A DNA stretch of 64,000 bases from Hyphomicrobiales bacterium (GTDB taxonomy: Bacteria; Pseudomonadota; Alphaproteobacteria; Rhizobiales; Xanthobacteraceae): NCBI GenBank assembly GCA_017305665.1, contig JAFKKH010000012.1:251617-315616 (forward strand), given 5' to 3'. Made by a program: the position numbers and the translations under genes. Below are positions 2,221 through 51,816 of the stretch, piece after piece. Within the stretch, counting starts at the first letter, position 1. The number at the start of each line of letters is the position of its first letter. The notes beneath the pieces were generated by a model, which was not told the origin of the DNA, made no database searches, and saw only the letters and a program-made list of their open reading frames with translations.

Positions 2221-3467
2221 TGCAAAAGACCGTTCATATCATTGGCGCCGGAATTTCCGGCCTTTCCGCGGGCGTGCGGCTGGCCGATGCCGGCTACCTG
2301 GTCCGCGTGCACGAGGCGACGCAACATGTCGGCGGGCGCTGCCGATCCTATTTCGACGGCGCGACCGGATTGACCATCGACAACGGCAATCATCTCATTC
2401 TGTCGGGCAATCACAACGTACTGGCCTATGCGCGTGCGATCGGCAGCGAAGCCGGATTGCAGGGGCCGCCAAAGGCTGAATTTTCATTTGTCGATCTCGC
2501 CGCCAACAAGCGCTGGACGCTGCAGATCAATGACGGCCGCGTTCCGTTTTGGGTATTCGACCGCAACCGCCGCGTGCCCGATACGTCGCCGGCTGACTAC
2601 TTCGGGCTCGCGCCGTTGACCTGGGCCAAGCCTGGTACGCGGGTCGGCGATGCCATCAAATGCGACGGCGTGCTCTATAAGCGGCTGGTGCAGCCGCTGC
2701 TGCTCGCCGCGCTCAACATCGAACCGCCCGACGGGTCGGCCGGTCTTGCCGGTGCGATCATTCGTGAGACGCTGCTAAAAGGTGGACAGGCGTGTCGTCC
2801 GCTGATCGCGCGCGACGGACTGAGTTCGGTGCTGGTCGAACCGGCGATCGCTTACATTCGCGCGCGGAGCGGCAGCGTCGATATCGGCCACGAAGTGCGA
2901 CAACTCACCATGGCGGATAACCGGGTGACGGCACTTTCTCTCGGCGATCAAACGATCGCGCTTGGTCCCGACGACGCCGTTGTCATGGCGGTTCAATCAC
3001 GTCCGGCAGCGGCGTTGCTGCCGGGCCTGACGGCGCCGACGAAATTCCGCGCCATCGTCAACGCGCATTTCCGCTTCGTTCCGCCGCCGCATCTGCCGCC
3101 GATGACCGGCGTTGTGGGTGGCTTGATCGAATGGCTGTTCGCATTTCCGGAGCGCTTGTCCATCACCATCAGCGGCGGTGACCGTCTGGTGGACATGCCG
3201 CGCGAGGAACTGGCGCAGGCGATCTGGAAGGATATTTGCGCGGTTGCCGGCATCGAAGCCGAGATGCCGGCATGGCAGATCGTGCGCGAGCGCCGTGCCA
3301 CATTCGAGGCCTCGCCCGAACAGAACGCGTTGCGTCCCGGGCCGCTGACCGCGTGGAAAAACCTGTTCCTTGCTGGCGACTGGACTGATACCGGATTGCC
3401 CGCAACCATCGAGGGATCGGTCCGCTCCGGAAACCGGGCTGCCGATCACGTTCTGAAAACCCGCTAA
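2220..3467 (+). CDS. hpnE: Hydroxysqualene dehydroxylase HpnE
   Basis: FAD-dependent amine-oxidase/phytoene-desaturase fold, 415 residues, reducing hydroxysqualene to squalene. The N-terminal dinucleotide-binding motif IIGAGISGLSAG is followed by an acidic residue (HEAT) and GGRC, as in this family. The C-terminal FAD motif (FLAGDWTDTGLPATIEGS) is also present. It is the third gene of the operon, between hpnD and shc (19-base gap). Confidence 0.95.
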   Translation: MQKTVHIIGAGISGLSAGVRLADAGYLVRVHEATQHVGGRCRSYFDGATGLTIDNGNHLILSGNHNVLAYARAIGSEAGLQGPPKAEFSFVDLAANKRWTLQINDGRVPFWVFDRNRRVPDTSPADYFGLAPLTWAKPGTRVGDAIKCDGVLYKRLVQPLLLAALNIEPPDGSAGLAGAIIRETLLKGGQACRPLIARDGLSSVLVEPAIAYIRARSGSVDIGHEVRQLTMADNRVTALSLGDQTIALGPDDAVVMAVQSRPAAALLPGLTAPTKFRAIVNAHFRFVPPPHLPPMTGVVGGLIEWLFAFPERLSITISGGDRLVDMPREELAQAIWKDICAVAGIEAEMPAWQIVRERRATFEASPEQNALRPGPLTAWKNLFLAGDWTDTGLPATIEGSVRSGNRAADHVLKTR

Positions 3468-43435: not shown

Positions 43436-43972
43436 ATGGCCCAACGATACGACGCTGATCATATCAGCGAGCACGCCCAGGACATCCTCAACCGGTGGTG
43501 CATCATCGCCGAACAGCGGCTCGATTATCTCACCGAGCTGTATGAAAGCGGACGCTGGCGTCGCTACCATTCCGAAAACGCATTCCTGGAAAACCTCCGC
43601 GAAGCGAAAGGCGCCGTCGAAACGTGGCGCGTGCTGGCGCGCCGCGAGGCGACACCGGACAATCGCGCGGTCGATTGGTCCTGGCTCGATCAACCAGCCG
43701 AAGCTCCCCCTGTGGTGCAGGAGCGGGTCGAACAGCCTTCGGCCCGGCTGCTCGGGACCGCGGCGGTGCATGCCGCACTGGCGTCAATCGTGCCGTCGCA
43801 GGACGATGCAGGGGCCGTCCTCGATGTTGACGATTCCTCGGCCGGCGAGGACGCTGTGTTGGCGACCGAGTGTCTCGACGACACGCCGGAAGCCGAGATG
43901 ATCCCGGAAATCGTCCCCGATCGCCGCACCGTTCAGGAGCGCTATCCGATGCTGCAGCACAACGTGCTGTAG
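43436..43972 (+). CDS. Hypothetical protein of the TIGR03809 type
   Basis: 178 residues from ATG 43436; the frame extends 43 codons further up without support. The N-terminal 75 residues are conserved-looking and helical (ISEHAQDILNRWCIIAEQRL, YESGRWRRYH, FLENLREAKGAVETWR), and the remainder is acidic and variable, ending RTVQERYPMLQHNVL. It fits my memory of TIGR03809, a family largely limited to Bradyrhizobiaceae and often near TIGR03808, which is indeed present 0.9 kb away. Function unknown. Confidence 0.7.
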   Translation: MAQRYDADHISEHAQDILNRWCIIAEQRLDYLTELYESGRWRRYHSENAFLENLREAKGAVETWRVLARREATPDNRAVDWSWLDQPAEAPPVVQERVEQPSARLLGTAAVHAALASIVPSQDDAGAVLDVDDSSAGEDAVLATECLDDTPEAEMIPEIVPDRRTVQERYPMLQHNVL

Positions 43973-47770: not shown

Positions 47771-48418
47771 TCAGGTGCGAGTCGCCTGCCGCGCCGCTTT
47801 CACGAGTTCCAGCAGCATGGCCTCGCCCGCGTCGACCAGATGCTCCAGCGCGATGCCGGATCCGCGGCGCGCCGCCGTTCCATCGCGCGCCAGCGGCGGG
47901 ACATGGATGAACGCCGCCAGCTTGGGGCCGCCATTGTCGTGGGTGGCCTCGATCGCGCGCCAGCTCAGATAGTTGCAGAGATAGCTGCCTGCATCGCGCG
48001 AGGCGCGCGCGTCGATGCCGGTTGCTTGCGCGGCGCGCAGCAGCTTGTGCATATGCGGACCGAAGGCCAGCGCATCCGCCGTACCCGATATCGTGCCCTT
48101 GCGCACCCGCGTGCCGTCGGCATCCGGCCAGATCGTCGTGATCGCGTTGCGCGCCCGCGTCTCGATCCGCAGATATGGCGTGCGCGCGGCGAGTCCGAAC
48201 ATCAGCAGCGCATGCGGACGGTGCTTGTCGAGGATCTGCGGCAGCTCGCGATCCACCGTCGTGTAGGTGACGTGGAAGATGTGGGTGGTGATTGCGATGT
48301 CGTCGAGCGCGGGGCGGCGCAGGGCTGCGAGCCGCGTCACCAGCGGCATGGTCGGATTGTACGGCGCGCCGGGGAAGGGACCGAAGCCGGTGATGAGGAT
48401 GCGGAGCTTCTTGGTCAT
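47771..48418 (-). CDS. pcp: Pyrrolidone-carboxylate (pyroglutamyl) peptidase
   Basis: C15 cysteine peptidase, 215 residues, removing N-terminal pyroglutamate. The catalytic set is visible: Glu in RIETRARN, Cys in DAGSYLCNYLSW, His in FIHVPPL. The N-terminus ITGFGPFPGAPYNP is typical. The ATG at 48418 overlaps the meaB stop (ATGA), so the two are translationally coupled. The open frame extends far upstream inside meaB, which is a shadow. Confidence 0.9.
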   Translation of the reverse strand: MTKKLRILITGFGPFPGAPYNPTMPLVTRLAALRRPALDDIAITTHIFHVTYTTVDRELPQILDKHRPHALLMFGLAARTPYLRIETRARNAITTIWPDADGTRVRKGTISGTADALAFGPHMHKLLRAAQATGIDARASRDAGSYLCNYLSWRAIEATHDNGGPKLAAFIHVPPLARDGTAARRGSGIALEHLVDAGEAMLLELVKAARQATRT

Positions 48419-49416
48419 CCTTGCTTGAGCATCTCCGCGATCTGTTCCGCCGCGAGCGCCGGCGTGATGCGGCCGTCGGCGACTGCGGATTCTGTCGTCT
48501 TCACTTTCGAGCGGATCGATGGATCGGCGCGCAACCGCGCCTTCAGCCGGTCCTCCAGCATCGACCACATCCATTTCACCTGTTGCTGGCGTCGCCGCGC
48601 GGCGAAGTCGCCGGACGCCTGCATGGCATTGCGGTGATCGAGGATCTTCTGCCAGAGTTCGGCGAGGCCGGTTCCTTCCATGGCCGAATAGGTCAGCACC
48701 GGCGGATGCCAGTGCTCGGAACGGGGTGCGAGGATGTGCAGCGCGCTGCGATATTCCGCCGCCGCCCGGTTGGCGCGCTTGACGTTGTCGCCATCGGCCT
48801 TGTTGACCGCGATCATGTCGGCGAGTTCGACGAGGCCCTTCTTGATGCCCTGCAGTTCGTCGCCGGCACCGGGCAGCATCAGGGCGAGGAAGAAGTCGGT
48901 CATGTCGCAGACCGCGGTTTCGGATTGGCCGATGCCTACCGTCTCGACCAGCACAACGTCGAAGCCGGCCGCTTCGCACAACAGCATTGCCTCGCGCGTT
49001 TTCGCCGCGACGCCGCCCAGCGTGCCGGCGGCGGGCGAGGGGCGGATGTAGGCGGCTTCGGATGACGACAACCGCGCCATCCGCGTCTTGTCACCGAGGA
49101 TCGAGCCGCCACTGCGCGCCGATGACGGATCGACCGCCAGCACCGCAACCTTGTGGCCGCGCTCGATCAGGAACATGCCGAGCGCATCGATGGTGGTGGA
49201 CTTGCCGACGCCGGGCGAGCCGGTGATGCCGACGCGAATGGCGCTGCCGGTCGCAGGCAGCAGCGTCTGCACCAGCTCGCGCGCGGTCGCTTCATGGTCG
49301 GCGCGGCGGCTTTCGATCAGCGTGATGGCACGCGCCAGCGCGGCGCGCTGACCGGCGCGAATGTCGGCGGCGAGGCGCGGCGCGTCGGAGTTGGGGGTGG
49401 GCACCGGTGAATCCAT
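48415..49416 (-). CDS. meaB: Methylmalonyl-CoA mutase-associated GTPase MeaB
   Basis: G3E P-loop GTPase, 333 residues (ArgK/MeaB family), protecting and reloading methylmalonyl-CoA mutase with adenosylcobalamin. Walker A is GSPGVGKSTTI; the switch segments are DPSSARSGGSILGDKTRM and ETVGIGQSE; the base-specificity motif is NKAD. It sits just downstream of scpA. No SD precedes the ATG at 49416; instead a 7-bp palindrome ends four bases before it. Confidence 0.95.
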   Translation of the reverse strand: MDSPVPTPNSDAPRLAADIRAGQRAALARAITLIESRRADHEATARELVQTLLPATGSAIRVGITGSPGVGKSTTIDALGMFLIERGHKVAVLAVDPSSARSGGSILGDKTRMARLSSSEAAYIRPSPAAGTLGGVAAKTREAMLLCEAAGFDVVLVETVGIGQSETAVCDMTDFFLALMLPGAGDELQGIKKGLVELADMIAVNKADGDNVKRANRAAAEYRSALHILAPRSEHWHPPVLTYSAMEGTGLAELWQKILDHRNAMQASGDFAARRRQQQVKWMWSMLEDRLKARLRADPSIRSKVKTTESAVADGRITPALAAEQIAEMLKQG

Positions 49417-49419
49417 TCT

Positions 49420-49436
49420 GTTCGTTTACAACGAAC
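49420..49436. promoter_or_regulatory. Palindrome at the meaB start
   Basis: GTTCGTT-TAC-AACGAAC, a perfect 7-bp inverted repeat with a 3-base centre, ending four bases before the meaB start codon. It could be a TetR-type operator, or an RNA hairpin that covers the translation start. Confidence 0.6.
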
Positions 49437-49439
49437 GGG

Positions 49440-49514
49440 CTAGTGGTCCGATTCTAACATTTGCATCCCGCTCCAGCAGTTCCCGTGCAAATGTTAGAAT
49501 CAAAGGACCACTAG
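49440..49514. repeat. Long palindromic element 1 in the scpA-meaB gap
   Basis: 75 bases. Left arm CTAGTGGTCC (49440-49449) and a 16-base arm 49450-49465; 20-base loop; right arm 49486-49501, a 3-base AAA bulge (49502-49504), then GGACCACTAG (49505-49514). All 26 pairs are Watson-Crick. It is related to element 2 at 49530-49604, which is in opposite orientation. Confidence 0.95.
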
Positions 49515-49529
49515 CAAATATAACTTTTT

Positions 49530-49604
49530 AGTGGAGCTTTGAATTTGACATTCGCTTTCTGGACTCGCAGCCACGTGGGTAGCGAATGTCAAATTCGCTC
49601 CACT
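49530..49604. repeat. Long palindromic element 2 in the scpA-meaB gap
   Basis: 75 bases. Left arm AGTGGAGC (49530-49537), TTT bulge (49538-49540), 16-base arm 49541-49556; 24-base loop; right arms 49581-49596 and 49597-49604. All 24 pairs are Watson-Crick. Read on the minus strand it has the same layout as element 1, including an AAA bulge in the same place. Confidence 0.95.
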
Positions 49605-49656
49605 GGTGGTGCGAGGGGAAGTCGAACGGGGTGCCTCATCTGCCGCGATCGAAAGA

Positions 49657-51816
<2,160 letters not shown>

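Follow-up and report, generated by a model that had tools for sequence, protein, structure and literature searches.

In the 64-kb window (the whole stretch of DNA analysed), an element of about 167 bp lies between scpA and meaB, both of which are on the minus strand. The composite order is hairpin B, a linker of 13–14 bp and hairpin A in inverted orientation. The earlier note had described two hairpins at this position, each with an outer stem, an AAA bulge on the same side and a 16-bp inner stem, closed by a loop of 20–24 nt, and all of these parts were confirmed. The features are as follows.

48415–49416, minus strand: meaB (PF03308, 397.7 bits), with 23 bp between its start codon and the element's A end
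49657–51816, minus strand: scpA/mutA, methylmalonyl-CoA mutase (PF01642, 778.3 bits), on the same strand and upstream of the element
49440–49606, minus strand: whole composite, B–linker–A, defined by copies (BLAST, covariance model) that keep its order and spacing of the two hairpins
49439–49515, minus strand: hairpin A (module A), model R2 match of 84.2 bits
49439–49449 and 49505–49515: outer stem of A, 11-bp arms GCTAGTGGTCC/GGACCACTAGC
49450–49465 and 49486–49501: inner stem of A, 16 bp
49466–49485: loop of A, 20 nt
49502–49504: bulge of A, AAA
49530–49604, plus strand: hairpin B (module B), inverted relative to A, model R2 match of 75.3 bits at 49527–49607
49530–49537 and 49597–49604: outer stem of B, 8-bp arms
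49541–49556 and 49581–49596: inner stem of B, 16 bp
49557–49580: loop of B, 24 nt
49538–49540: bulge of B, TTT, which is AAA on the other strand
49515–49527: AT-rich linker, 13 nt, between the inner CTAG-type borders
49511–49514: inner border of A, CTAG-type
49528–49531: inner border of B, TTAG here
49440–49443: outer border of A, CTAG, a word that occurs just 13 times in the 64-kb window
49603–49606: outer border of B, CTGG, probably a decayed CTAG
49450–49454: GANTC (GATTC), CcrM-type site at the base of the A inner stem, a position common to many copies
49497–49501: GANTC (GAATC), the partner site in the other arm of A
49562–49566: GANTC (GACTC) in the loop of B, rare at that place in other copies

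Copies of the composite and turnover of its stems

The two hairpins are not separate members of a single-hairpin family; each is a fixed half of the same composite repeat. A and reverse-complemented B align as one module, the plan of which is CTAGTGG-N3, a bulge of 3–4 nt, an inner stem of about 15 bp, a loop of about 20–28 nt and the complementary arm. The pattern AGTGGWSC-N{3,16}-ACATTYGC has four matches in the window, all of them hairpin arms, and none in 100 shuffles. Folding of each of the four strands gave z values of −6.7 to −10.2, and 0 of 200 shuffles folded as well.

A covariance-model search, proposed in the earlier note as a way to find further copies, did recover many, dispersed mostly between genes and with the bulge conserved. 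The host genome (5.03 Mb) has 12 near-full-length A hairpins by BLAST, and the search with B gave its own set. Eleven composites lie at scattered sites with A and B adjacent in the same arrangement, accompanied by a lone A (L007), a lone B (L036) and five remnants (L014, L020, L042, L044 and L045). In one host composite (L004, contig C21, ~43767–43906), B has a third stem sequence, GGTTCTGACATTCGCT, which is largely compensated in the opposite arm. Among 32 measurable family copies, the linker length is 13 in 24, 14 in seven and 7 in one.

In the order as a whole, the composite covariance model has matches in 55 of 297 genomes, host included, and in 29 of 123 genera; this is a floor, with at most nine candidates per genome scored under strict filters that left 242 of the 297 without a match. 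The module model gives 9 to 133 matches per genome in eight rich genomes, both strands counted. A B-only pattern was found in at least 115 stretches, and the 80 listed hold 77 separate composite places, 73 of them full length (from the best 150 of 172 composite-model matches, one strand per place). These 77 places belong to Nitrobacter, Mesorhizobium, Chelatococcus, Phyllobacterium, Pleomorphomonas, Agrobacterium vitis, Rhizobium, Jiella and others. Plasmid copies are rare, with 16 of 72,556 records in the richest search, and a plasmid of Sphingobium sp. V4 (L264) has a full composite in another order, Sphingomonadales. A phage-borne repeat was rejected: the window element has no match in 50,697 phage records, and only two viral-contig stretches have the B pattern. 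Across the class, 21 of 385 genomes match, namely the host and 20 outside the order. At 14 class-level places in ten genomes (one of them, L454, cut by a contig end), the stems are largely different in all except L451, for example GAAGTTCG in place of GACATTCG; CTAGTG-type borders occur at most ends, and the two hairpins, bulge and linker recur.

The stem sequences thus turn over with compensation, while the CTAG borders, the bulge and the linker stay. In the window, the arms of A and B differ at two outer and five inner positions, and by eye all seven changes are compensated, as had been claimed. Covariation from these two copies alone is weak evidence, to which further copies add support. 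Pairing holds in 99.5% of cells across 24 modules of several genera, compared with 24–40% in slid controls; this set was picked for intact arms, so pairing is overstated. Ten of 25 pairs in these modules are changed on both sides (shuffled mean 8.0, reached in 10 of 500 shuffles), and double-changed cells number 81 compared with 26.8 in shuffles; the further pair types, 17, are fewer than the 20.3 in shuffles. In a less selected but model-fitted set of 148 places (142 rows with ungapped ends), 93–94% of cells are Watson–Crick. The covarying arms and the conserved bulge thus hold up with the added copies from several genera. Loop complementarity between A and B was also compared: in 71 composites with strong stems, that of a composite's own pair exceeds shuffled pairing, and 0 of 2000 permutations reach it. 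We do not claim kissing loops between A and B, as relatedness and A/B homology can explain this complementarity.

Insertion at CTAG and the candidate transposase

CTAG forms the border at 210 of 284 element ends, and 85 of 142 composites have it on both sides. The non-CTAG ends are mostly one substitution off (CCAG at 18, CTGG at 16), and the bases outside the borders vary, with nothing obvious conserved. Two empty sites were found. First, the element is missing between scpA and meaB in the congener G297, which reads CCGG-CTCA-TGGCGCGAGG compared with CGGG-CTAG-element-CTGG-TGGTGCGAGG in the window. At this locus CTAG is only a probable target, since the empty site reads CTCA and the B border CTGG. 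Second, a composite in Martelella sp. NC18 and NC20 interrupts the reading frame of a group II intron reverse transcriptase, with the junctions GATGG-CTAG/CTAG-AGGCGCC. Four relatives have this site uninterrupted; only one of them, Rhizobium sp. 007, has CTAG there (GATGG-CTAG-AAGCGCC), and the three others have GATGG-CTGA-AAGC. The interrupted reverse transcriptase gene lies on a Martelella plasmid, with the composite at 2998–3170 of locus L062. Comparison of filled and empty alleles shows insertion at CTAG, in which one four-base site of the empty allele corresponds to two borders of the filled allele.

Copies at different loci can be nearly identical, at about 98.8% (alignment score over length) in G312 and 97–98% in G303, G307 and G298. 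Because there are two empty sites and near-identical copies at different loci, the element is mobile, and it has moved recently in several genomes. At the host locus L010, the insertion is common to the relative G304, with 77% identity over 621 columns, indels and some unmatched stem changes. Tandem composites at L275 (G073, contig C4) and at 173390–173723 of G073 contig C6 share one CTAG, as if one had been inserted in the border of another. Both TA and CTAG fit the element junctions as a target duplication; the inner hairpin borders keep CTAG as well, a feature that simple duplication of the target leaves unexplained. The repeat is geneless and about 167 bp long, B and A have outer arms that are homologous in inverted orientation, and its mobility comes with target duplication and empty sites, traits that are found in MITEs. 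We therefore consider it probable that the element is a non-autonomous transposable element (a MITE of about 163 bp plus the target duplication) made of two inverted, diverged hairpin modules. The non-autonomous mobile palindrome family suggested by the earlier note is in this respect upheld by the many copies, the empty sites, the conserved bulge and the covarying arms.

The mover may be found among IS5/IS427-like transposases acting in trans with duplication of TA, a tentative attribution that rests mainly on the shared CTAG target. The ends C-TA/GTGG...CCAC/TA-G would be cut and joined in trans by a DDE transposase from the IS427-like group of the IS5 family. Insertion sequences (ISs) with PF13340, which we take to be the mark of the IS427-like group, were found in 9 of 10 and in 25 of 36 carrier genomes searched; 1 of the 10 and 11 of the 36 had no match. 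Among 60 PF13340 loci, TA-flanked inverted ends could be resolved by script for 24, and 36 were left unresolved. With 19 of the 24 resolved candidates kept, at an IS length of 821–860 bp (L371, L379, L405, L408 and L416 were dropped), 16 of the 19 are flanked by C-TA and TA-G, which is CTAG with TA duplicated. None of the 24 has IS ends beginning GTGG. One IS end, GGACCGATCGACATT, is similar to GGTCCGATTCCGACATT at the A end of the element, but the best-match shuffle p is 0.004–0.30 over six end types; the end alignment compared is GGTCCGATTCCGACATT with GGACCGAT--CGACATT.

IS427-like ISs adjoin a hairpin module exactly at its border at L392 (1324–1403) and L406 (~879–958), an adjacency expected if the IS and the element use the same scarce target. 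The ends of the L392 IS, GGTCCAATCGACATT, read by eye as GGTCC, and the script left them unresolved. We rejected L392 as an autonomous copy, since this IS has its own GG ends, and read it as an IS in the border of a B module. A partial search, covering 20 regions of eight high-copy genomes and the 60 PF13340 loci, found no autonomous copy.

CTAG is scarce in the window, with 13 occurrences compared with 58 expected. Among the 118 genes directed towards an element, the TAG stop of 27 lies within the border CTAG, and nine more end at a border with another four-base word (counts from our own ORF caller, with 11 edge places and five places without a gene left out). Annotated examples are MerR of A. 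vitis and RraA of Agrobacterium sp. T29. The sequences show that the junction reads CTAG again, and a gene whose stop is written CTAG therefore keeps it. Some of the genes with a stop in the border may have been cut short by insertion.

GANTC sites and alternative readings

The element is rich in GANTC, with 1.98 sites per element compared with 0.56 in shuffles. GANTC is under-represented in the window, where 133 sites compare with 343 expected, three of them in the window copy of the element. Of 140 copies, 103 have the site in the 5′ arm of A, 94 in the 3′ arm and 82 in both, while 12 have no GANTC at all; the A arms are complementary, so the two sites are not independent. The GANTC pair also occurs at 7 of the 14 class-level places, six of them with quite different stems. 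The host CcrM homologue has a RAMA domain and scores 521.7 bits to 6pbd; against the NCBIfam equivalog model it scores 615 bits, which is below the cut-off of 830. Through the pair at the base of A, the element or its neighbours could come under the influence of CcrM methylation.

A repeat with GANTC in a similar setting has been described as CIR (CcrM-associated intergenic repeats, Chen and Shapiro 2003), which consists of two stem-loop arms and a linker, with GANTC, and is about 110 bp long, as described in PMC2229807 and PMC10969869. The present element could be a CIR-type repeat kept for host function, its CcrM-site hairpins taking part in cell-cycle-linked regulation or chromosome organisation, with mobility secondary. 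The plan shared with CIR (two arms, linker, GANTC, occurrence in alpha-proteobacteria; PMC2229807, as far as its description goes) favours this reading, as do the site in both A arms of 82 of 140 copies and its recurrence among the class-level places despite different stems. We nevertheless judge it unlikely: congeners lack the element at the orthologous sites, one of the copies disrupts a gene, 242 of the 297 genomes of the order have no match under strict filters, and the 12 copies mentioned above have no GANTC whatever.

An RNA-level role is less likely still. The hairpins would then be transcribed in the leader of the downstream gene and control the translation or decay of meaB-type mRNAs. 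Both strands do fold stably, and the A side faces a gene start, the A-side gene reading away from the element, in 11 of 11 host copies, the one in the 49417–49656 gap of the window among them, and 43 of 64 family relatives. However, this bias is absent in the named loci (29 of 59), and an orientation rule that places A upstream of genes was dropped. In the 148 places, G–T mismatches outnumber A–C mismatches only modestly (188 compared with 133), which gives little indication of RNA-type pairing, and the pairing changes look DNA-type. A pattern scan of 49350–49700 found no terminator- or promoter-like site, and the best Rfam score over 49300–49700 was 20.5 bits compared with a gathering score of 90; with both scans negative, an RNA family or terminator was rejected. 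A regulatory effect on scpA–meaB expression is possible but unsupported. For a mobile element, which is the reading we prefer, pairing would persist at the DNA level, either because only intact-ended copies keep spreading or through arm-to-arm conversion.

Most improbable is a REP/BIME (REPIN) repeat spread by a RAYT transposase: the element shares with that class two inverted palindromes at a fixed spacing, dispersed mostly between genes, but no link to a REP-associated transposase, which the earlier note had proposed to look for, was found: PF01797, searched for in the host, in 31 carriers and beside the hairpins, is absent from the host and present in only 6 of the 31 carriers (host included), no hairpin lies within ~1.5 kb of any of 13 PF01797 loci, and hairpins of ~79 bp with CTAG borders differ in size and tag from REPs, described in PMC3733652 as palindromes of 20–40 bp with a GTAG or CGTC tag. 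RAYT was thus rejected as a general partner.

A wider picture can be drawn around the MITE, although as a whole we regard it as rather unlikely. It would be a class-wide family of paired-hairpin MITEs that includes CIR, in which the stems are freely rewritten while the CTAG borders, the bulge, the linker and a basal GANTC pair in one hairpin are kept. Such elements would borrow IS5/IS427 transposases, would be gated by CcrM hemimethylation after passage of the replication fork and would find harmless landing sites in CTAG stops.

Relation to known repeats and significance

No published description of a 167-bp CTAG-bordered repeat was recognised in the available text of the literature searched, a search that the original CIR and RIME reports fall outside. 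By description, CIR is the closest relative, sharing two arms and a linker, GANTC, the alpha-proteobacteria and a position mostly between genes. The two differ in several respects. The present repeat is about 167 bp long compared with about 110 bp, and in most copies it has GANTC at the stem base instead of in the terminal loop. One copy interrupts a gene, whereas CIR is reported as strictly intergenic in the accounts of PMC2229807 and PMC10969869. Lastly, the present repeat has a demonstrated CTAG target and empty sites; the mechanism of CIR mobility was left open in 2007 by the review text of PMC2229807. We regard the present family as CIR-like, a larger and mobile variant set apart from CIR by description rather than by sequence alignment. 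Two 124-bp relatives in G599 (L441 and L442) are very like the CIR description: their loops are short, and one arm has GAGTC lying partly in its terminal loop.

IS870 belongs to the IS427-like group and reportedly needs CTAG to form its stop codon. In this group (IS870, IS711 and relatives), the target is CTAG or YTAR with TA duplication, and the element shares CTAG. The ISs differ in having a transposase and simple ends starting GG, compared with a geneless element whose hairpin ends start GTGG. IS711 duplicates the TA of YTAR according to the account in PMC2266754, and Paracoccus ISs of the IS427 group are described in PMC3281130 as mostly 832–865 bp with a 2-bp duplication. Bru-RS1 and Bru-RS2 of Brucella are two related palindromic repeats and possible insertion hot spots of IS711, as described in PMC2266754. 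By description, they resemble the present modules in being related palindromes in the same order, but they are 103–106 bp long, and the one RS1–RS2 pair described in PMC10800456 has a spacing of 155 bp compared with 13 here. RUP of Streptococcus pneumoniae is likewise a short geneless repeat proposed to be moved in trans by an IS, a proposal made in PMC2229807 from matching ends and a TA target. It differs in being of IS630 type and 107 bp long, with no two-hairpin plan described in the available text of that review. RIMEs are annotated in S. meliloti, according to the account in PMC2573895. RIME1 and RIME2 (Osteras 1995) are, by description, also repeats of rhizobial intergenic regions; no Sinorhizobium is among the plasmid matches listed for the present element, although S. 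meliloti plasmids were in the collection. The two-palindrome plan is found in RIME1 too. Finally, REP, BIME and REPIN repeats are alike in having inverted palindromes in pairs, but the hairpins here are larger and CTAG-bordered, and no link to RAYT was found.

In summary, these results suggest how the CIR-like repeats of alpha-proteobacteria may move: they provide a CTAG target and empty sites, together with a candidate group of transposases. The harmless settling of the element at gene ends is explained by a target that includes the stop TAG, which is read again at the junction. Dam gates IS10 and IS50, and a comparable gating of a mobile element by CcrM now becomes testable.
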